Shown: positions 27,410 to 38,346 of the stretch, piece after piece
Layout: every line of letters begins with the position of its first letter
Position numbering within the stretch: position 1 is the stretch's first letter
Assembly: GCF_011038785.1 (NCBI RefSeq)
Contig: NZ_JAAKDT010000001.1
Location: 62,001-126,000, forward strand
Direction: 5' to 3'
From: Parabacteroides sp. ZJ-118
Lineage (GTDB): Bacteria > Bacteroidota > Bacteroidia > Bacteroidales > Tannerellaceae
DNA: 64,000 nt
The notes under the pieces: generated by a model
What the model saw: only the letters and a program-made list of their open reading frames with translations
Told to the model about the DNA's origin: nothing
Database searches by the model: none
Position numbers and translations under genes: made by a program

Positions 27410-27622
27410 CTCTTTAATCCTCAATTCTAAAAAAAACGAACCACCGGACGGCCGGACTCGGGAAGTAGCGTATTCTCCCACGCCGCGAATATAGCCAAAA
27501 AGTATCAAGAAACAAGTTTTTTTTAAAGGGAAACATTTTTGTTGTGGATTGTAGACTGACAGACCCGTAACGAAATCTTCTCTTTTCTCCTATCTTCTTC
27601 TTTATAAAAGGGGTAAAAACAC

Positions 27623-27630
27623 TATCTTTG
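27623..27630 (+). promoter_or_regulatory. -7 box of the GH2 gene
   Basis: TATCTTTG matches TAnnTTTG 47 bases before ATG 27678. The -33 element is weak (TTTATA about 18 bases upstream). The 268-base gap 27410-27677 holds nothing else I can support. Confidence 0.6.
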
Positions 27631-27677
27631 TCCACCGTTAATTGAGTAAACCCTAATTTAGAGTAAAAAACATTATC

Positions 27678-30503
27678 ATGAAGAGATTTTGGAGTATTCC
27701 ACTTATGCTCATGCTGTTCGCATGCCAAACTCCTAAAGAGAGTAGAGAGGAATTATCGCTTGCCGGTTGCTGGGAATTACGATTGGATTCGACAGATGTC
27801 ACCGAGCAAGTTCAATTACCGGGTACCACGGACACCAACCAAAAAGGGTACCCAAACAAGGATAAAGACGAGACGACCCATTTATCCAGGCCCTTCCGCT
27901 ATCAAGGTAAGGCTTGGTATCAGAAGGAGATCACGATTCCGGAGCGTTGGGAAGGCAAAAGTATCTGGTTGACCTTGGAGCGGACAAAGCCGACCCAGGT
28001 ATGGGTAGATAGCGTATACGTCGGTTCGTCCGACCTCATTTCCACCCCTCAAGCGTACGATCTGTCCGCCTATCTCCGAGCCGGGGGGAAGCATCGTTTG
28101 ACCATCCAGGTCGATAACGGCTTGAGCGTACCGCCCCAATTATTGGACAATTCGCACGCTTATACGGAATCCACGCAGACAAACTGGAACGGTATTATCG
28201 GAGACCTGAAATTGGAAGCCCGCCCACAATTCCATATCCGCCAAATACAGGTATATCCACATGCGGACCAAAAAACGGTAGACGTGAAACTAAAGCTCGC
28301 GAATCCATTCGATCAAACGATCGTAGCCGCCGTTCAAATAGAGATGGAGGCTTTCAACACAGGCATGGAGCATCGTATCAAGTTCAACAAGGATCTAGAA
28401 GTCCGACAAGACGAGATCGTATGCCAAATACCGATGGGTGATGATGCCTTGGAATGGAGCGAGTTCTCCCCTACCCTGTATCGCTTGACAGCGAACATCC
28501 AAGGAGAGAATATCCAAGATAGCCAAAGTACGACTTTCGGGTTAAGAGATTTCAAAGCAGAAGGGACACAATTCACCATCAACGGATTGACCACCTTCCT
28601 TCGCGGGAAACATGACGCTTGCGTATTCCCGCTTACAGGCCATGTACCGATGGATACCGCGGCATGGAGACGCTATTTCCGCATCGCCAAGGAATACGGT
28701 ATCAATCACTGCCGTTTCCATTCATGGTGTCCTCCCGAGGCCTGTTTCGAGGCGGCCGATATCGAAGGTTTTTACCTCCAGCCGGAACTGCCTTTCTGGG
28801 GAAAGATGGAAAAGAGCGATACCACTTTGATCCATTTCCTCACCAAAGAAGGATTACAAATACAGGAAGCTTACGGAAATCACGCCTCTTTCGTCATGAT
28901 GGCGATCGGCAACGAGCTTTCCGGGGATCAAGACGCGATGGTGGACATGATCGCCCGTTTCCGCGGCGAGGACGGACGGCATTTATACGCATCTGGATCG
29001 AATGACTATCTAGGCTTCAACGGCCCCGCGGCGGGTGACGATTACTTCACGACCTGCCGAGTCCCCGGCGCTAACGTATTCGGCAACCATACCCGGGGTT
29101 CTTTCTCTTTCGCCGACGCGGAGGATGGCGGTTATATCAACCACACCTATCCAAACTCGGTCATGAATTTCAAATCCGCTGTCGAACAATGTTCATTGCC
29201 TATCATCGGACACGAGACCGGGCAATTCCAATGTTATCCGAATTATGAGGAAATCAAGAAATATACCGGGGTACTGAAACCTTGGAACCTGGAGATATTC
29301 CGCGAACGGCTGGACGAGGCCGGTATGGCCGAACAAGCGGATGATTTCTTCAATGCCTCCGGCAAATGGATGGCGCGACTTTACCGGGCCGAGATGGAAA
29401 TGGCGTTCCGTACTCCGGGGATGGCAGGCTTCCAATTATTGGATTTACAGGATTATCCGGGACAGGGCACGGCGTTGGTCGGTATCTTGGACGCGTTTAT
29501 GGATAACAAGGGCTTGATAACCGCTGAGGAATGGAAAGAGTCTTGCGATGATGTCGTATTATTGGCTCTCCTGCCTAAATTCTGTTACTCGGGGAGTGAG
29601 GAGATCAAAGGCTCCATCGAGGTAGCGAACTATACACCGACCGCTTTAGAAGGGAAACGTCTAAATTGGACCTTGACGAATAGCCGGGGTCAAGCGATCG
29701 CCCAAAACAGCCTATCACTGCAAATCAATCAAGGCACGTTGGCCAAGGCAGGTCTATTAAATATCGCTTTACCTGTCGTTCAAGAGGCTGAGACCTATAC
29801 TTTACGGCTGGCGATCGAGGGCACGGATTATCACAATCATTACCCATTATGGATTTTTCCGGAACATAATAACGTGCAAGTCCCTACGGGTATCAAAGTC
29901 ATCAAGGAATGGGATAAACAGGCCGAGGAGGCATTGGCGAACGGGGCGAAAGTATTGTGGTTCCCGGATGCCGGGACTTACAAGGACGTGACGGTAGACG
30001 GGTTATTCCAGACAGATTACTGGAATTACCGGATGTTTAAGTCCATCTGCGAATGGGTGAAGAAACCGGTCTCTCCGGGTACGCTCGGATTATGGATGAA
30101 CCCCTCTCATCCGGCTTTCACTCATTTCCCGACGGATTTCCATACAGACTGGCAATGGTTCACGATGATAAAGAATAGCCATCCGCTGATACTGGATCAG
30201 CTTCCGGATCATTACAGGCCGATCGTACAAGTGATCGATAACGTGGAGCGTAATCATAAATTAGGGATGATCCTGGAGTTCAATGTCGGCCCTGGCAAGT
30301 TGTTAATCTGTATGACAGACTTGGAAACCCAGCAAGCATATCCGGAAGCCCGCCAATTATACCGCAGCTTGTTAAGTTACATGGATTCCCCCGAGTTCTC
30401 GCCTCAGATGACATTAGCGCCCGCCCAATTGATTGAGTTATTCACGCGTCAAGTCGGAGACTCGAAGATCAAGGAATTAGGGAATATCTCGTATGACGAC
30501 TAA
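27678..30503 (+). CDS. Glycoside hydrolase family 2 lipoprotein
   Basis: The 941-residue protein has a lipobox LFAC (Cys16), a jelly-roll sugar-binding domain (about 60-180), an immunoglobulin-like domain (about 185-290) and a TIM barrel. The proposed acid/base is Glu413 (GNELSG) and the nucleophile Glu513 (GHETGQF). The C-terminal 300 residues contain further beta domains. Family GH2 includes beta-galactosidases, glucuronidases and mannosidases; which applies here is unknown. It is a surface or periplasmic enzyme without an adjacent SusCD pair, so it is not part of an evident utilisation locus. Confidence 0.85.
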   Translation: MKRFWSIPLMLMLFACQTPKESREELSLAGCWELRLDSTDVTEQVQLPGTTDTNQKGYPNKDKDETTHLSRPFRYQGKAWYQKEITIPERWEGKSIWLTLERTKPTQVWVDSVYVGSSDLISTPQAYDLSAYLRAGGKHRLTIQVDNGLSVPPQLLDNSHAYTESTQTNWNGIIGDLKLEARPQFHIRQIQVYPHADQKTVDVKLKLANPFDQTIVAAVQIEMEAFNTGMEHRIKFNKDLEVRQDEIVCQIPMGDDALEWSEFSPTLYRLTANIQGENIQDSQSTTFGLRDFKAEGTQFTINGLTTFLRGKHDACVFPLTGHVPMDTAAWRRYFRIAKEYGINHCRFHSWCPPEACFEAADIEGFYLQPELPFWGKMEKSDTTLIHFLTKEGLQIQEAYGNHASFVMMAIGNELSGDQDAMVDMIARFRGEDGRHLYASGSNDYLGFNGPAAGDDYFTTCRVPGANVFGNHTRGSFSFADAEDGGYINHTYPNSVMNFKSAVEQCSLPIIGHETGQFQCYPNYEEIKKYTGVLKPWNLEIFRERLDEAGMAEQADDFFNASGKWMARLYRAEMEMAFRTPGMAGFQLLDLQDYPGQGTALVGILDAFMDNKGLITAEEWKESCDDVVLLALLPKFCYSGSEEIKGSIEVANYTPTALEGKRLNWTLTNSRGQAIAQNSLSLQINQGTLAKAGLLNIALPVVQEAETYTLRLAIEGTDYHNHYPLWIFPEHNNVQVPTGIKVIKEWDKQAEEALANGAKVLWFPDAGTYKDVTVDGLFQTDYWNYRMFKSICEWVKKPVSPGTLGLWMNPSHPAFTHFPTDFHTDWQWFTMIKNSHPLILDQLPDHYRPIVQVIDNVERNHKLGMILEFNVGPGKLLICMTDLETQQAYPEARQLYRSLLSYMDSPEFSPQMTLAPAQLIELFTRQVGDSKIKELGNISYDD

Positions 30504-30562
30504 GCGGACACAAATGAGGAAGGAACAATGATAGTTGAAAACACACGAGTTAAAAAAGAATC

Positions 30563-30707
30563 ATGGTAAGACCTACAAACAGACAACAATTGATATCCGC
30601 CGCAACGGACAATTATGCTGGGCTCCTATTTTATCAGTACTACAAGTGCCCACTACGATTGGGCGTTGAAAAAGCTGAAAGCACACCGAAAGAACATGAA
30701 ACAATGA
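30563..30707 (+). pseudogene. Internally deleted ClbS/DfsB-family gene
   Basis: ATG 30563 opens MVRPTNRQQLISAATDNY, the N-terminus of ClbS/DfsB four-helix proteins. From about 30621, one base out of frame, follows GSYFISTTSAHYDWALKKLK, the family's C-terminus, ending in TGA 30705-30707. About 120 central residues of a roughly 170-residue family are missing, so this is a deletion relic. ClbS relatives protect against colibactin-like genotoxins. Read in the original frame it fuses into the following DJ-1 fragment as a 157-codon open frame, which is not a natural protein. Confidence 0.7.
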
Positions 30708-31036
30708 TTGTAGGTGCTATTTGTAACGCCGCTTCTTTTATGGCAAAGCACGGATTCCTCAATACCTCAAAGCATACCGGCAACGGTTTGGAGCAACTGA
30801 AACTTTGGGGAGGTGACAATTATACAAACCCTAACGGGTATATCCACGCCCAAGCGGTCAGCGACAACCACCTCGTGATGGCAAACGGTTCCGCCACACT
30901 AGAGTTTACCAAAGAGCTACTGTCGTTACTTGAGAACGATACCCCGGAACGTATCGAGATGTATTATCAGTTCAATAAAAAAGGAATGACGTCGTATCTC
31001 CGTTCGGAGATATACAGGCAGAGCATCTCCTCCTAA
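30704..31036 (+). pseudogene. C-terminal fragment of a DJ-1/PfpI-family protein
   Basis: From ATG 30704 the frame reads MIVGAICNAASFMAKHGFLN and continues through HTGN, QAVSD and ANGSATLEFTKELL, typical of the C-terminal half of DJ-1/PfpI proteins, including the nucleophile-elbow Cys7. About 80-100 N-terminal residues are missing. The fragment follows the ClbS relic directly, suggesting that one deletion joined two neighbouring genes. It might still be translated but is unlikely to fold as a normal member. Confidence 0.65.
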
Positions 31037-31085
31037 TGACAAAAGAAGATTACGGTGTCTTAAATAGCTGTTCGGTTCTGTGTCT

Positions 31086-31104
31086 AAAAACGACTCGTGT
31101 TTTT
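31086..31104. terminator. Weak hairpin between converging reading frames
   Basis: AAAAAC (31086-31091) and GTTTTT (31099-31104) form a short A/T stem downstream of the DJ-1 fragment and of the minus-strand nuclease gene. It could act in either direction. Confidence 0.35.
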
Positions 31105-31111
31105 GAGTGTT

Positions 31112-33547
31112 TTAGTACGGATTGACACCCGATTTGGAAACAGATCTTCCTTTGCCCAGAATCGTGATATGCATATATATGATTTTCCCATTGTCACCAT
31201 TGAAAACACGGGCTATGTAATATGGAATGTCACATTCAAGTTCTTGCAGGAAAAGCCATTGTGATTTACGCATGAAAAAAGGTATGGAGTCTGAATTGGC
31301 TACGCCTCGCATGGTCGTTTTGGCATCGCAAAAACAAATGGTTTGCTCTCCTTTCTTGACTTCAAAGTCATAGCGAGGCTCATCATAGTCTTTGCTCGCC
31401 CATATAACATGATAACCCTGATTTCGGGGATATTTTACCAGCAAATCCTTATACACAAGTTCTTCCCCCCAATTTCCGGTCTGGCTATTGGCATGAACTT
31501 TGTCATCCACTCTTTCAAGAAGCATGTTTAGCATCATCGGCAATTTGTCTTTGTTTGCAATCAGTCGGGTCAGTTCTTCATTGGATAAATCAGATGATGC
31601 CAGTTCCGCCAAGGCTTCCATCTTTCCACTTTGGGCAATGATAAGTGTTTGTTCCCGTTGCGTTTCCGTAAGCATGTCCACAATGAGCGTTGCACGTTTA
31701 GGATAATACCAACGGAACCAAACAGGCAGATTCTCTTTGGGTGTATAGTTTGAGACCCAAGTGTATAGTGCATTCAAGGGACGATTGATGGCAGCTGTAT
31801 TACCTTTGTTCCGGGTATATTGCTCTGAAAGCTCTGTGTCAATGCAGTTCGCAATTTTTTCTATGCTGTATGTTTGGTTTACGATGCCCAATGAATCAAA
31901 CTGTTTGTCCAGCAAGTGGGACTCTATCTTTTCTCCTTTTGATTCATGTAGTTCATTGTATATGTTTTTAAGTTCAGAAGGCAAGTTATCATCCACGGAA
32001 AGCTCCATACAGGTCTTGAACTCTCCCTGTTGATTGGGTAGCAATTTCATGGACGCAAACAGATGTTGGTCGCACTCCTTAAGATAGGAACAACACTGAG
32101 TCAACCATTTAAGGACTTCATGGGGTTCTTGGTTAAAAGAATATATGTTCTTTACACTCTCAATGGAGGTCGCCAAGTTTCTATATGTATATTTTTGTTC
32201 GGTGAAGAGAGTAAAATCCGTTGAGTCAAACCATTTCTGATAATCCGATTCCACAGGTAGCTCTTTGGCTGCAATGAATCGGGCATTATGATAGAGTTCA
32301 ACGTCTGCCTTACTGTCTCTAAACGGAAGCTTTACTTGTGAGAAATTGATAAAATCGCCTGTGCAGTTGGGAACGACGGCGTGAGTCAGTATCAGCTGCT
32401 TGTACTTAATGATATAACGGGTATAGAATTGTGTTTTCGATGCCTGCGTACCATTGTATTTCCGTCGAATGTCTGCCAGCACATGCGCATTATACAGCTT
32501 ATGTTTCTCTACATAATCCAACACCTTTCCGTACAGTTCTACGGAATCGTCCATGATGGTTCGATTCTGTTCATTGCTGCCGGGTTCCAACTCGATGCCT
32601 TCACGTTCCGTAGTCGGTTCAAAACGAAGGCTGTTTACAAGGATGGGAAGCCCGATGTCTTCTGTTCCTATCAGTGGAAGTCCGCAAAACATTTTGGAGA
32701 TGCGGGGAGGAAGTGGCACTATCCTGTTATCCTCATAACGGAATACGGAAGAGGCTTGATTATGGCAGAAGTAAGCAAAATGCAGTTCCTTTGCGATATC
32801 ATGATGGGTAACCTCAAAGACAAGAGAGCTTTCATATTCCGCTTTGCGCGAAATGGTATAAACAACGGCATCCGCTTCCCTACGGTCTTCAATGCTAACA
32901 CTCTTTACCTTGGGCATAAAGCACAAGGTATAAGGTAGCAGATCATACAGATAGTCTAAATCGATGTCATCTCCCGACAACGGTTCCAAGGTAGGTAACG
33001 GTTCATGAAGTTTGTAAGTGAAAGAGGTTTGGAAACCCGTTTGCGGAGTTGTCGGGTGAAGGGATTGCTTAAACAACGACTTGGCTTCCTGACTGGCTTC
33101 AATCAGTCTCCCTTTATCTTCAAAGGAACTTCGATCCAGTTCCAACTCAAATCGGTATAATTCATCGTCTCTGCACAATCCTTTTACATGGATGATTGAG
33201 GACAGGATGTGGGTAGAAACGAACCCCGTGCCGAATCTGCCGATATTGTCCGTGTGTATCTCATCGTACCGTTTGTTTGAATCCGGTAATATGAGATTGA
33301 GGGCGTCATTGATGCTAAAAGCGGCACCGTCATGTTGGAACTCCACTTGGTCTTTGGTCACAATCAGGCGGACGGACACCACGTCGTTGTAATCGCTGGC
33401 ATTTTGCAGGAGTTCCCAGAACCACCGTTTCTTTGCATTCTCTTTTCTGTTTTTCAGTAAAGACAGTTTTTCTATCAAGCGTTGAGCCGGTATCGAACGG
33501 AACTGCTCCTGCTCAACCTGATCTACACGCGAACCGATGTCAGACAT
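31112..33547 (-). CDS. Sacsin/HSP90-type ATPase with C-terminal PD-(D/E)XK (DUF3883-like) nuclease domain
   Basis: The 811-residue protein begins with a GHKL ATPase domain of the sacsin type: RFRSIP-like lead-in, WELLQNASD (N box, Glu45/Asn49) and IGRFGTGFVSTHIL (ATP-lid glycines about 103-109). A long middle region has no recognised domain. The end (about 691-780) looks like a restriction-endonuclease-fold DUF3883 domain: GNWGEELVYKDLL, then Asp727 in RYDFEV and Asp741-Ala-Lys743 as the (D/E)xK. ATPase plus nuclease in one chain, an upstream partner overlapping by eight bases and gene debris nearby suggest a defence function, which is inference. Base composition is more AT-rich than its neighbours. 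Confidence 0.8.
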   Translation of the reverse strand: MSDIGSRVDQVEQEQFRSIPAQRLIEKLSLLKNRKENAKKRWFWELLQNASDYNDVVSVRLIVTKDQVEFQHDGAAFSINDALNLILPDSNKRYDEIHTDNIGRFGTGFVSTHILSSIIHVKGLCRDDELYRFELELDRSSFEDKGRLIEASQEAKSLFKQSLHPTTPQTGFQTSFTYKLHEPLPTLEPLSGDDIDLDYLYDLLPYTLCFMPKVKSVSIEDRREADAVVYTISRKAEYESSLVFEVTHHDIAKELHFAYFCHNQASSVFRYEDNRIVPLPPRISKMFCGLPLIGTEDIGLPILVNSLRFEPTTEREGIELEPGSNEQNRTIMDDSVELYGKVLDYVEKHKLYNAHVLADIRRKYNGTQASKTQFYTRYIIKYKQLILTHAVVPNCTGDFINFSQVKLPFRDSKADVELYHNARFIAAKELPVESDYQKWFDSTDFTLFTEQKYTYRNLATSIESVKNIYSFNQEPHEVLKWLTQCCSYLKECDQHLFASMKLLPNQQGEFKTCMELSVDDNLPSELKNIYNELHESKGEKIESHLLDKQFDSLGIVNQTYSIEKIANCIDTELSEQYTRNKGNTAAINRPLNALYTWVSNYTPKENLPVWFRWYYPKRATLIVDMLTETQREQTLIIAQSGKMEALAELASSDLSNEELTRLIANKDKLPMMLNMLLERVDDKVHANSQTGNWGEELVYKDLLVKYPRNQGYHVIWASKDYDEPRYDFEVKKGEQTICFCDAKTTMRGVANSDSIPFFMRKSQWLFLQELECDIPYYIARVFNGDNGKIIYMHITILGKGRSVSKSGVNPY

Positions 33548-34082
33548 TGAAGTAAGTATTTATGAAATATTCGTAAGTATCTACATAAACATGATTGTCC
33601 AGTCCGGCATTCATATTGACGCTCAAAGCAAAAAGGAGCGCTATTAAGGTTTTCAATAGTGTTCTCAACTTTGTTAGTTGTTTCTCTTTGTTTTCGTCTT
33701 CATGCAAAGCCAATTCTTGTTCCAACTTGTCTGCTTGACCATTCAACTCTACTTTAAGTTCTTGAAGGGCTTTCTTATAATTGTCCAAGAAAGTATCGAC
33801 ACCTAAGTTTTCTATTTGGTTTAAGTAGGCGATTACGCTCTCCAAAGGTAAGGAACCTTCCATCTCACCATATGAAAATTGTTTTATGGATATACCATCT
33901 ATTGTGATACAACCCTCCTCGTCGAATCTAGTCGATAACACAACTCGCCTGCCATACAGCTGTTTTTCTGCATAATTCTGGTCTATCTTCTTAATAACCA
34001 CATAAGGCTTCAATCCTTCTTCATCACTACAATCACCGTCTACATAAACATAAACATTGTCTTTCTTTACTATTGCTTCCAT
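33540..34082 (-). CDS. Small coiled-coil protein with hydrophobic C-terminal segment, partner of the ATPase-nuclease
   Basis: The 180-residue protein is not recognised. Residues 1-75 look like a small beta-rich domain (NVYVYVDGDCSDEEG, RRVVLSTRFDEEG), about 95-138 a charged coiled coil (NYKKALQELKVELN, LEQELALHEDENKEKQ), and about 141-157 a hydrophobic helix (TLIALLFALSV) followed by an aromatic tail. The frame is open for 74 codons more, but that part is a poor protein sequence, so ATG at 34082 is preferred. Its stop overlaps the ATPase-nuclease start (ATGTCTGA), implying coupled translation. It could be a sensor or membrane tether. Confidence 0.6.
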   Translation of the reverse strand: MEAIVKKDNVYVYVDGDCSDEEGLKPYVVIKKIDQNYAEKQLYGRRVVLSTRFDEEGCITIDGISIKQFSYGEMEGSLPLESVIAYLNQIENLGVDTFLDNYKKALQELKVELNGQADKLEQELALHEDENKEKQLTKLRTLLKTLIALLFALSVNMNAGLDNHVYVDTYEYFINTYFNV

Positions 34083-34624
34083 GATACAATTAAAAAATAT
34101 AAGTTTGACATAAAATCTTATTATTAAGCACATCGTAATAAACGCACCCAACCTATAAAAAGTCAAATCGTATTTATCACAATGTTCCTGAACTCCAAAA
34201 TTATAAAGATTTACTATAAAGCAACTGATTTTCACAAAGAATTTGTGCCTCGACAAGCGGTTGGAATAGTTTTTTAGCGTGCACAAACGGGATACTCCCC
34301 CCAAAAAAGCATCTGGAATAGGGAGGCTAAGTCACTGGAATCCGTCTCGCGTTCCATTGACTTGGCGCCGTATCTCAATGGCTTTCCGGTAAGTACACAG
34401 AGACACATCGGCGTGATACGTAAAAGTATACTTGTTTTCGCCTTAATTTCGATCTGTTTGATTGTACGGAGTGACAACGATTGGGGGCGCCACTGAGGTG
34501 TGTAATGACGTACCAGCGATGCGGAGGTAGGCGGATTTTTTGAATTGGCAACAGTTTAGGATGAAAAAATCAGGACAAATCGATAAATTTCATACTTTTG
34601 TCTTCCTATATAACTGACACTAGC
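34083..34624. other. AT-rich intergenic stretch without a supported gene
   Basis: This 542-base gap separates the ATPase-nuclease cassette from the aminotransferase. Open frames exist (for example plus-strand 34278-34496, without a start codon, and a 67-codon minus-strand frame at 34274-34477), but neither resembles a family I know. Base composition changes around 34300-34500, so this may be the right border of acquired DNA. No inverted or direct repeat marking the border was found. Confidence 0.5.
34593..34600 (+). promoter_or_regulatory. -7 box of the aminotransferase gene
   Basis: TACTTTTG matches TAnnTTTG 24 bases before ATG 34625, supporting that start over the in-frame codon at 34598. 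A clear -33 element was not seen. Confidence 0.6.
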
Positions 34625-35938
34625 ATGAAAAATACTCCTGTAGACTATCAGACAGCCAGACGAATTATCGATGGCTTTGGACTTCCCGATTTTGGGAAAG
34701 CGACTATCCGGGAGGTAGTTGCCATATCCACGCGATTGGAACAAGAAACGGGAACCGAGTTCATCCATATGGAAATGGGCGTACCGGGCTTGAAGGCCGC
34801 CCAAGTAGGCGTAGACGCCGAGATCGAAGCCCTTCGTAGCGGTATAGCCTCCATCTACCCGAACATCAACGGAATTCCCGAAGTGAAAAGGCAAGCTTCC
34901 CGCTTTATCAAGGCGTTTATAGATATAGAGATAGATCCGGAGTGTTGCGTACCCGTAACCGGTTCCATGCAGGGCACATACGCCTCTTTCCTTACGGCCG
35001 GACAATGTATGCCGGGAAGGGAGACCATCTTGTTCATCGACCCCGGATTCCCCGTGCAGAAGCAGCAAATAGCCGTTATGGGCTATAAATACGAGTCGTT
35101 CGACGTATACGAATATCGCGGCGAGCGATTGCGTGAAGTCTTGGAGGCGCATCTTTCCAAGGGCAATATTGCCGCGATGATCTATTCCAACCCGAATAAC
35201 CCGGCTTGGTTTTGCCTCACCGACGAGGAGTTGAGGATCATCGGCGAGATGGCCGACAAATACGATGTGATCGTCATAGAGGACCTCGCCTATTTTGCCA
35301 TGGATTTTCGCAAGGACCTCGGATGTCCCTTCGAGCCTCCTTATCAAGCGAGCGTAGCCCGTTATACCGACAATTATATCATGCAGATATCCGGCTCCAA
35401 GGCGTTCAGCTATGCCGGACAGCGTATCGGGGTGACAGCGATCTCCAATACACTTTACCATCGCTCCTACCCGGAATTGACCCGGCGCTATGGAGGCGGC
35501 ACGTTCGGTACGGTATATATCCACCGTGTCTTATACGCCCTCTCATCCGGAACCAGCCACTCGGCCCAATTCGCCCTAGCCGCCATGTTCAAGGCCGCCG
35601 CAGACGGTACTTTTGACTTTGTCTCGCAAGTGAAAGAATACGGACGCCGCGCGGAGAGACTAAAGAAGATTTTTACGGATCATGGTTTCACGATCGTTTA
35701 TGATCACGATCTGGACCAACCGATAGCCGACGGTTTCTATTTCACGATCGGTTACCCGGGAATGACCGGCGGACAACTGATGGAAGAACTGATTTATTAC
35801 GGAGTAAGCGCCATATCATTAAGTACCACAGGCAGTAACCAACAAGGACTACGAGCTTGTACCTCTTTCATAAAAGAGCACCAATATGACTTACTGGACG
35901 AAAGGCTGAGATTGTTCGAGGAAAATCATCAAGCATAA
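34625..35938 (+). CDS. Class I/II pyridoxal-phosphate aminotransferase
   Basis: The 437-residue protein has the fold-type I pattern: Tyr in PNINGIPEVKRQASRF, YSNPNNPAW (substrate/PLP Asn), VIVIEDLAYFAMDF (PLP Asp) and the PLP lysine in ISGSKAFSYAGQRIG. It transfers an amino group between an amino acid and a 2-oxoacid; the particular amino acid cannot be told. The start is set by the -7 box and by MKNTPVDYQTARRI. It stands alone between accessory DNA and yqgE. Confidence 0.85.
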   Translation: MKNTPVDYQTARRIIDGFGLPDFGKATIREVVAISTRLEQETGTEFIHMEMGVPGLKAAQVGVDAEIEALRSGIASIYPNINGIPEVKRQASRFIKAFIDIEIDPECCVPVTGSMQGTYASFLTAGQCMPGRETILFIDPGFPVQKQQIAVMGYKYESFDVYEYRGERLREVLEAHLSKGNIAAMIYSNPNNPAWFCLTDEELRIIGEMADKYDVIVIEDLAYFAMDFRKDLGCPFEPPYQASVARYTDNYIMQISGSKAFSYAGQRIGVTAISNTLYHRSYPELTRRYGGGTFGTVYIHRVLYALSSGTSHSAQFALAAMFKAAADGTFDFVSQVKEYGRRAERLKKIFTDHGFTIVYDHDLDQPIADGFYFTIGYPGMTGGQLMEELIYYGVSAISLSTTGSNQQGLRACTSFIKEHQYDLLDERLRLFEENHQA

Positions 35939-35949
35939 ATCAATGGCAG

Positions 35950-35991
35950 GCCCGGCCTATTCACGTTTATTAACTCGGATCCCGGGCTTTT
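35950..35991 (+). terminator. Possible terminator after the aminotransferase
   Basis: GCCCGG (35950-35955) pairs with CCGGGC (35982-35987) followed by TTTTC. The 26-base loop makes it weak. Confidence 0.4.
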
Positions 35992-36058
35992 CATTTGCTT
36001 CTTATTAAAAAACACCTTATATTGTCGGTGAATTAGTAATAACCTAACATCCACGATC

Positions 36059-36655
36059 ATGGCATCTTATAAAAATATATTTAAAATAACACATAACGAC
36101 ATCCTTCCTATCCAAGGAAGTATTCTAATCGCCGAGCCTTTTTTACAAGATGCCTACTTCCAACGTTCCGTCGTATTGTTGATAGAGCATACGGAACACG
36201 GATCGATGGGATTTGTCCTGAATAAAAAGACGGATCTTATCGTAAACTCTTTTTTCAAGGAGTTTGCCGAGTTCCCGGAGATACCGATTTATCTGGGGGG
36301 ACCGGTCGGCTCCAACCGTTTGTTCTTTATTCATTCCTTGGGAGATAACATTATCCCGGGCGCGTTAAAGATCAATGATTGTCTATATTTCGACGGGGAT
36401 TTCAACGCATTGAAACAATATATCCTCAACGGGCATCCAATCGATGGGAAAGTGAAGTTTTTCCTGGGATACTCCGGATGGACCGAAGGACAGTTAAACC
36501 ATGAGATCAAACGGAACTCATGGGCCGTAAGCCCTATTACCACCGATAATATCCTGTCTGCCGACGGCGAGGGTTATTGGGTAGATTCCGTAGAATTATT
36601 GGGCAATGATTATAAAACCTGGACAAAATATCCGAAGGATCCCTGTTTAAATTAA
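36059..36655 (+). CDS. YqgE/AlgH family protein
   Basis: The 198-residue protein contains the family blocks GSILIAEPFLQDAYFQRSVV, HGSMGFVLNK, YLGGPVGSNRLFFIHSLG and FLGYSGWTEGQLNHEI. The family is widespread but has no agreed biochemical role; AlgH was linked to alginate regulation in Pseudomonas. It converges with the GNAT gene, overlapping it by nine bases at the 3' ends. Confidence 0.93.
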   Translation: MASYKNIFKITHNDILPIQGSILIAEPFLQDAYFQRSVVLLIEHTEHGSMGFVLNKKTDLIVNSFFKEFAEFPEIPIYLGGPVGSNRLFFIHSLGDNIIPGALKINDCLYFDGDFNALKQYILNGHPIDGKVKFFLGYSGWTEGQLNHEIKRNSWAVSPITTDNILSADGEGYWVDSVELLGNDYKTWTKYPKDPCLN

Positions 36656-37162
36656 CTGCATCACGCAGACATCCGAATAACCATCCGGTGTCCGGATCCA
36701 GTCCTTAAGCGTCCCTGCCTCGACAAATCCCAGGCGGGTGAATAATCTCTTGCTAGGCTCGTTCGCCACGGGAATATGCGCGTAAAGCTGATGAAGTTTC
36801 AAGAACGTATAAGCGTATTCCATCAATAGCCTTAACGCTTCCGTGGCGAAGCCGCGTCCTTGATACTTCCGGTCCAGCATAATACCGCAAGCCGCCCGGT
36901 TCGGATGCGGCTCGAAGTCGAATAAGTCCGCGATCCCCACGGAAGTCTCCGTATCGCGTTCCTCGATCATGAAGCGAAGTTGGCGGGACTCATAGATACT
37001 CCGGTCGCTACCCGCTATATATTCCTTCAACAGATAACGGGAATAGGGAGCCAAGGTATTCCCTACCTCCCATAACTTCGGATCATTCTCCCAACGATAT
37101 AACAACTCCAGATCCTCCGGTTCCAACGCCCTCAAACGGACTCTATCACTCGACAACAACAT
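36647..37162 (-). CDS. GNAT-family N-acetyltransferase (RimJ/RimL type)
   Basis: The 171-residue protein has the order VRLRALEPEDLELLYRWEND, GIADLFDFEPHPNRAACGIM and the acetyl-CoA loop YQGRGFATEALRLLMEYAY, then NEPSKRLFTRLGFVEAG. These are features of RimJ/RimL-like acetyltransferases acting on amino groups of proteins or small molecules. The target is unknown. It is 17 bases downstream of the GT2 gene on the same strand. Confidence 0.9.
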   Translation of the reverse strand: MLLSSDRVRLRALEPEDLELLYRWENDPKLWEVGNTLAPYSRYLLKEYIAGSDRSIYESRQLRFMIEERDTETSVGIADLFDFEPHPNRAACGIMLDRKYQGRGFATEALRLLMEYAYTFLKLHQLYAHIPVANEPSKRLFTRLGFVEAGTLKDWIRTPDGYSDVCVMQLI

Positions 37163-37179
37163 ATCTACCCCAGGATTAC

Positions 37180-38346
37180 TTAAACAAGCCGACCACTCTT
37201 CTTCGTATATATATGGTAAACCGCTTTCTTGTTCGCGAGCCTGTCCATAAACAAGAGCATCTGCTCATAGCGCGCGTCGGGGAAGCAGAAAACGTAGTCC
37301 GTAAAGCCTTTCATCTGGTTCTTGCGGCAGATCGCATCCATCACACGCTCCACGTCCAAATCCCAGAGATTCACAAACTCCAGGCCCGGCATAGCTTTCA
37401 GGCAAACAGCCTTTATCTCCTCAAAATGCTCCTCCCTACACAAGATCAAAAGGCGGCGATGCTTAACCGCTCTAGCCTTCTTGCGCAGAGGTATGGAAAG
37501 CGTCGCCCAGCAAGCTTTCAGCAGGATCGCCAACCGGATCAGTATTCGCATCAGCCAACCGGATCCCGGATAATATTTCTTGTAGAAAATCAACATGGCG
37601 CCGTAAAAAGCCTTTATGTACCTCAAGTCGCCCTGCTTCGTGCTTTCCCCCTTATAATGCAGGATCCGTTCCGGCACGTACAAATTCTTGTAGCCCCCCA
37701 ACACGATCCGATAAGACAAATCGATATCCTCCCCATACATGAAGAACGACTCGTCCAACAGACCAACCTTATCCAACGCCTCATGGCGAAGCAACATGAA
37801 CGCGCCCGCCAGCACCTCCACTTCATGCGTCTGCTCTTTATCCAGATACGGCAGGCTATAACGTGCGAATGCCGGAGAGTTGGGAAACAGCTTTGAAAGA
37901 CCAAATATCTTGCAGAACGATACCCAAGGCGAAGGGAAAGCCCGTTTGCTCTCCGGCAAGAACACCCCGTGCCTGTTCAGCATCTTCACGCCGATGGCCC
38001 CGATCTCCGGATCCTCATCCATCTGGAAGCACAGGCTGCGGAGACTCTCCTCTCCCACCACGGTATCGGGATTCAGCAATAACACGTATTCCCCGGCGCA
38101 CTGGCGGATCGCCTGGTTATTGGCCTTGGCGAAACCGGGATTCTCCTTATTCTCGATGAAAACCACCTCCGGGAACTTAGGCCGGAGATATTCGACAGAT
38201 CCATCCGTCGAGTCATTATCCACCACGAACACCTCGGCATCCATCCCCGTCACGGCGGCACGGACAGCATAGAGGCATTGCTCCAGAAAATACTTCACGT
38301 TATAGTTAACGATGATAACGGACAACTTGGTCTCTTCGTAGGTCAT
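37180..38346 (-). CDS. Glycosyltransferase family 2
   Basis: The 388-residue protein opens LSVIIVNYNVKYFLEQCLYA, has VVDNDSTDGS and the DXD-like LLLNPDTVV, and later ESFFMYGEDIDLSYR, which mark the rhamnosyltransferase-like GT2 group. A hydrophobic stretch near 265-285 may bring it to the membrane, and a C-terminal extension of about 100 residues has no recognised fold. It transfers a sugar to a surface glycan, but no other glycan gene lies beside it. Confidence 0.88.
   Translation of the reverse strand: MTYEETKLSVIIVNYNVKYFLEQCLYAVRAAVTGMDAEVFVVDNDSTDGSVEYLRPKFPEVVFIENKENPGFAKANNQAIRQCAGEYVLLLNPDTVVGEESLRSLCFQMDEDPEIGAIGVKMLNRHGVFLPESKRAFPSPWVSFCKIFGLSKLFPNSPAFARYSLPYLDKEQTHEVEVLAGAFMLLRHEALDKVGLLDESFFMYGEDIDLSYRIVLGGYKNLYVPERILHYKGESTKQGDLRYIKAFYGAMLIFYKKYYPGSGWLMRILIRLAILLKACWATLSIPLRKKARAVKHRRLLILCREEHFEEIKAVCLKAMPGLEFVNLWDLDVERVMDAICRKNQMKGFTDYVFCFPDARYEQMLLFMDRLANKKAVYHIYTKKSGRLV

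Follow-up and report, generated by a model that had tools for sequence, protein, structure and literature searches.

The two overlapping genes that occupy positions 31112-34082 of the 64,000-nucleotide stretch of DNA analysed here (the window) are best explained as a short two-gene version of the anti-phage family Tiamat (TmtA). The large gene encodes an 811-residue protein with a sacsin/Hsp90-type ATPase core and a NOV_C-like, putative PD-(D/E)XK nuclease at its C-terminus, and the small gene encodes a 180-residue partner that is confined to one sub-clade of the family. The original prediction had taken the pair for an undescribed defence system. We reject this for the large gene on its match to TmtA (PADLOC, E=4e-109), and the longer TmtA relatives share the same layout.

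Both reading frames lie where they were originally placed, the large one (811 aa) at 31112-33547 on the minus strand and the small one (180 aa) directly upstream at 33540-34082 on the same strand. They share eight bases (33540-33547, minus strand), which suggests a single transcript for the pair, and the two genes are thus probably co-transcribed. The small gene starts at the ATG at 34082, consistent with the starts of the aligned homologues; the open frame extends to 254 aa from a TTG. For the small protein of one relative (L003), an internal ATG was picked so as to fit the homologues. Comparison of the window with three relatives reveals 70-77% identity at second codon positions and 32-35% at third positions, which argues for coding constraint on both genes. 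The reported AT-richness of the pair is confirmed (42.3% G+C vs 49.6% for the window; the source genome is 3.17 Mb). Of the “decayed genes” said to lie nearby, the claim holds for the one ORF examined as a candidate, at 30563-31036 on the plus strand, which looks like a remnant since it covers only positions 95-164 of the 165 of the DJ-1/PfpI profile, the C-terminal part of the domain. The first residues of this ORF appear unrelated to DJ-1/PfpI, as though fused by a deletion.

The family assignment of the large protein is based on the PADLOC TmtA model PDLC03967, which aligns protein residues 1-536 with profile positions 1-554 of 1063 (the E-value given above) and which, at E<=1e-20, matched 0/14 control genomes. 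This best match spans only about half of the profile, and the C-terminus gives a weak match (E=2e-6) to positions 1404-1510 of another TmtA model, PDLC03964. On the evidence of sequence, the 811-residue protein is a member of the TmtA (Tiamat) family. The sacsin-type ATPase that had been predicted is borne out by the sacsin ATP-binding model NF047352 (59.8 bits against a cut-off of 50), and profile and structure matches alike point to a sacsin/GyrB/Hsp90 ATPase (Bergerat) fold at residues ~21-235. The ATPase region as a whole (residues 1-290; 32678-33547, minus strand) contains E45, N49 and D52 and the motif GRFGTGF at 103-109, and is followed by a middle region (residues 291-690; 31478-32677, minus strand) that is mostly helical in a low-confidence model.

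Relatives of the large protein at 55-58% identity were found in three genomes, a yak caecum MAG (L003), a Paraprevotella MAG (L004) and a dairy cattle caecum MAG (L005), with a more distant relative in L006; the named relatives found by sequence are Bacteroidales. In two longer TmtA relatives, L025 and L026, the match to the TmtA model runs from end to end. Viral contigs searched with the profiles of both proteins contained no relative of either, and phage records searched with the large protein yielded none. The plasmid search returned no match to the small protein and, for the large one, three partial matches, of which the best covered 67-68% of it at 28-29% identity.

The C-terminal module (residues 691-795; 31163-31477, minus strand) is defined by invariant residues, a sub-threshold Pfam match and a structural model. 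Residues E695, D727, D741 and K743 (in D741-A-K743) and Q763, whose numbering was converted from a fragment alignment with the letters checked, are invariant in 6/6 aligned rows, i.e., the window and its relatives, so that the proposed E695, D727, D741-x-K743 signature stands. A profile comparison puts these residues in register with the corresponding signature in the modules of the longer TmtA proteins (E=7e-4, probability 26%). The family named in the original prediction fared less well: PF13020 (NOV_C, formerly DUF3883, described as a novel REase domain in excerpts from a 2013 survey, PMC3710099) matches the window protein at E=0.011 and 16.2 bits, below the 22.1-bit cut-off. Strict membership was rejected on this score, together with the lack of any match at E<=10 in the corresponding pieces of L003, L004, L005 and L006 and of any hit at E<=1 in a search of the pair's own genome. 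L089, which is 29% identical over nearly its full length, gives E=0.0032 at the same place, still sub-threshold, and a Pfam scan of two of the longer TmtA proteins found a sub-threshold NOV_C match in L026 and none in L025. Because the cut-off is not reached, we name the module NOV_C-like only. Its model shows a helix, three strands, a helix and two strands at low confidence (pLDDT 35-66 by blocks of ten). Structure matches to the full model fell on the ATPase, the module part being poor, and a PDB sequence search with the module profile returned chance-level matches only. We therefore speak of a NOV_C-like, nuclease-like end and a putative nuclease.

Alignment and modeling of the small partner suggest a strand-rich N-terminus, two long helices and a conserved NMNAGLxN motif (model mean pLDDT 62). 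Searches of Pfam, NCBIfam, PADLOC and PHROGs assign it to no family at a meaningful score, Foldseek with the low-confidence model as query gave 0 matches at E<=0.001, and a PDB sequence search with its profile gave chance-level matches only. Conserved linkage of the pair is found in 4/4 loci, the window and 3/3 close relatives, where a small gene encoding a 42% identical protein lies directly upstream of the large gene, 12 bases apart in L003, 4 bases overlapping in L004 and 11 bases apart in L005. A scan of species genomes, which detects close relatives only, placed large-gene relatives at four loci (L003-L006), and a small-protein profile scan of the L006 locus found the small gene absent. 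L089 likewise has no detectable small gene despite end-to-end similarity and the same nuclease type; the partner is therefore not needed by the whole lineage. Among 98 relatives, 393 genomes of the order and 123 of the family (overlapping samples), the small gene was detected in its own genome only. In another family it was present in 1/399 genomes, at the same contig coordinates as the L004 gene, and we take this single match to be the L004 genome itself. The small-protein profile gave best E-values of 0.19 at 16 other loci and 0.53 at 11 further Tmt loci. Confined in this way to close relatives, the partner characterises a single sub-clade rather than the family as a whole.

TmtA is sparsely distributed: the PADLOC model detects it in 11/393 genomes of the order at E<=1e-20, and a profile of the window group detects 12/395 genomes of the phylum at E<=0.001, the last three weakly. 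We sorted 23 Tmt proteins by C-terminus into exclusive classes, leaving out L027 (a 250-aa piece, with one internal stop counted in the genome search) as well as L028, L029 and L030 (genome-search E-values of 3.5e-8 to 4.9e-5, no ORF match). A nuclease-like module ends 13/23 proteins, all of which match by construction, as the two profiles were built from them after sorting by eye: the window-type module is present in six (the window, L003, L004, L005, L006 and L089) and a second nuclease-like module in seven (L025, L026, L068, L082, L083, L084 and L086). A different module with a SELW-like motif ends 8/23, comprising the profile seeds L021, L022 and L023, the profile-found L024, L085, L087 and L091, and L088, assigned by eye. 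L090 has neither module type and L020 is cut near a contig edge (1/23 each).

In seven of the eight SELW proteins, L024 being the one without, a gene follows directly downstream on the same strand. In L085, L087, L088 and L091 this gene encodes an AAA_15/AAA_21 (OLD-like) ATPase, after which L085, L087 and L091 carry a small gene, with sub-threshold TOPRIM-like matches in L085 and L091 and no TOPRIM-like match in L087. The downstream gene encodes SLFN_AlbA_2 with a sub-threshold HEPN domain in L022 and SLFN_AlbA_2 with a TIR domain in L023, and the gene downstream of L021 resembles its L022 counterpart on reading of the sequence. Since seven of the eight thus precede an OLD-like ATPase or an SLFN_AlbA_2-type gene, the effectors look exchangeable. 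L086, whose nuclease-like end is fused, matches L021-L023 at 45-48% identity, but not beyond ~residue 685. The homology break near this residue separates related Tmt genes with different ends (L021:3654-7297, L022:7441-11072, L023:7744-11516 and L086:5626-8217). Similarly, the core of L006 groups with L068 (tree support 100/100), whereas its nuclease module groups with the window group (98/81; 56-65% identical), in core and module trees of which several deeper branches are weak. We read these patterns as a probable exchange of effector modules on a common Tmt sensor core. The L006 Tmt gene (L006:8001-11600) is itself split into two frames of 907 and 255 aa.

We tentatively extend this to a wider picture, possible but in our judgment open to real doubt, in which Tiamat comprises modular Hsp90/sacsin-type immune receptors whose core would carry either its own nuclease or an effector-docking module. 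The effectors would then be an OLD-like ATPase with a TOPRIM-like protein, SLFN_AlbA_2 with HEPN, or SLFN_AlbA_2 with TIR, and the window form would add a sub-clade client protein that sets the threshold of the nuclease.

The pair lies in a variable segment (30507-34515) whose edges are both sharp against one genus-mate, G015, the right one also against G016 and G025. In G015, both flanks are present at 92-93% (27550-30506 and 34516-37998) with other genes between them. In G016, the right flank is present at 93% and the left only in part (27550-28612, 89%), again with other genes between; G025 has only the right flank in common within the stretch compared; and the more distant G028 (72-78%) retains both flanks around other genes. 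Because conserved flanking DNA adjoins other genes in these four genus-mates, we read the pair as what appears to be mobile cargo. Searching 38 genomes of the genus with the aminotransferase that adjoins the pair gave a locus for 29 of the 37 others, and in 29/29 nothing matched upstream of 34516, within up to 1.5 kb per locus. A tRNA-Asp adjoins the aminotransferase gene and marks a variable spot in 17/29 genus-mate loci (L032-L060), and is not found at 34516 in the window. We note that G015 carries at the equivalent spot (L061:3433-5676) a 747-aa gene that by eye resembles a UvrA paralogue. In L004, a tRNA-Met and a phage-type integrase gene adjoin each other ~5 kb upstream of the pair, and integrase, tRNA-Met and pair probably belong to one element. 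The same region of L004 (L004:1137-10406, upstream of the pair) also contains two genes (325 and 344 aa), related-looking by eye, for which no Pfam or PADLOC family matched.

A setting among defence genes holds for relatives and not for the window itself, where the neighbours are metabolic and housekeeping genes, as recognised by eye from the ORF list. In L003, the pair is surrounded by a partial SngA with SngB and SngC (Shango), a UG26 reverse transcriptase, an AAA_15 ATPase and PDC-S06 (PrrC-like), and PADLOC matches 6/8 scanned proteins there vs 0/2 in L004. Ten neighbour proteins at five other Tmt loci, a chosen set and not a survey, comprise Lamassu at L082 (2/2 scanned), type I restriction and PDC-M62A at L026 (4/4), Ssp at L025 (2/2), HsdR at L089 (1/1) and one protein at L024 with no defence match (0/1). 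At L026 (L026:3795-16225), TmtA separates the specificity gene of a type I restriction operon from the restriction gene and is preceded by a 210-aa gene.

Tiamat was reportedly described by Millman et al. in 2022 and is known as a single-gene system, in contrast to the linked second gene of the window sub-clade. The window protein shares with it the homologous ATPase core over 536 residues (PDLC03967 and sister models) and a nuclease-like end, in which the longer end-to-end relatives likewise finish (sub-threshold NOV_C in 1/2 scanned), but differs in length (811 residues against a profile of 1063) and in its distinct nuclease sub-type. Excerpts from two articles class the mechanism of Tiamat as unknown (PMC12926258; PMC10482375), and those from a third describe it as occurring frequently at one island hotspot in Pseudomonas (PMC12629846). 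In the open-licence papers listed for this family and its domains, no title or opening abstract lines mention a two-gene form or effector exchange. According to excerpts from PMC12137116, VcSduA of Shedu type I-D has the same order of domains, an N-terminal GHKL ATPase and a C-terminal PD-(D/E)xK nuclease, and its authors propose, as a hypothesis, control of the nuclease by the ATPase. The Shedu type I-D nuclease is, however, a DUF4263 domain, and we rejected Shedu as an assignment since Pfam listed no DUF4263 match for the 811-residue protein (E<=1 with the full-length sequence; E<=10 with its C-terminal piece alone).

The plant protein NO VEIN has an ATPase plus NOV_C layout, PF13020 being named after its C-terminus. 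Sacsin and NO VEIN share the sacsin-type ATPase with the window protein, and NO VEIN also its type of end, but both are eukaryotic and much larger, and to our knowledge neither is regarded as a nuclease. According to excerpts from PMC3710099, eukaryotic sacsin combines Hsp90 modules with HEPN; those from PMC8195603 name sacsin fusions in animals, nothing further. If our reading is true, it would tie bacterial immune systems to the architecture of two eukaryotic proteins, sacsin, as outlined in these excerpts of PMC3710099, and NO VEIN. Comparison across the family yields a proposal for the mechanism of Tiamat that can be tested, namely a sacsin/Hsp90 switch whose effectors are exchangeable. 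The window protein is a compact form of 811 residues with a proposed active site and a single partner protein that could be purified.

VcSduA suggests by analogy that the Tmt core is most likely an ATP-driven switch whose effector is the nuclease. In the mechanism that we infer, with its trigger, dimerisation, DNA cleavage, phage protection and role for the partner, the TmtA-like protein would recognise some product of phage infection as an Hsp90/sacsin-type ATP switch. ATP binding would close it, probably as a dimer, and closure would activate the C-terminal NOV_C-like PD-(D/E)XK nuclease, which may then cleave either phage DNA or that of the infected cell. The small protein, presumably made from the same transcript, would be a dedicated sub-clade partner that binds the ATPase core and either blocks its activity before infection or presents it with the trigger. 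Three roles are conceivable for the partner, namely restraint of the core, presentation of the trigger and tethering of the complex, and the strict pairing fits them all alike. As a whole, the explanation by a two-gene Tiamat variant, in which an ATP switch activates a fused nuclease under a restraining or triggering partner, seems to us reasonably probable. Counting against it are the TmtA match over about half of the profile, the sub-threshold PF13020 score with no match in L003-L006 or in the own-genome search, and the low-confidence model of the module, as well as the position of the window pair outside a defence island, the two scanned L004 neighbours without defence match and the L089 locus with no detectable small gene.

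Restraint could also take a harsher form, akin to a toxin-antitoxin pair, in which the ATPase-nuclease is constitutively dangerous and its dedicated inhibitor, the small acidic protein encoded upstream, disappears or loses activity upon infection. Gene order and spacing (small gene first, overlapping or <=12 bases away, 4/4 loci) and the net charge of the small protein (-6 to -12 across orthologues) would suit such an inhibitor. L089 and the longer TmtA relatives, however, keep a fused nuclease-like end with no detectable small gene, so the nuclease need not be toxic alone, and the absence from L089 counts against a need for the partner as a general antidote; nor did the database searches match the partner to an antitoxin family. 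We consider this unlikely. Still less probable, in our view, is a role of the small protein as an inner-membrane anchor for the complex that signals phage entry or damage to the membrane. Its hydrophobic helix, which precedes or crosses the conserved NMNAGL motif, reaches Kyte-Doolittle 19-residue maxima of 1.84 in L003 and 2.05 in L005, above the usual transmembrane threshold of 1.6, but falls short of it in the window protein (1.55) and L004 (1.23), so that 2/4 orthologues exceed it, and its poor model gave no credible fold match for or against a membrane role. The pair might finally have no defence role, as a mobile chaperone-like or DNA-maintenance ATPase with an inactive nuclease-like domain. 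The isolation of the pair among housekeeping genes and the weak nuclease assignment by sequence fit this reading, which we hold to be very improbable given the signature residues kept in 6/6 rows, the strength of the TmtA match, the location of relatives among known defence genes, and a module exchange and patchy distribution that are usual for defence genes.

Elsewhere in the window, G+C reaches 0.58-0.65 between 41000 and 49000, across several ordinary-looking genes, against 0.42-0.55 over most of the window.
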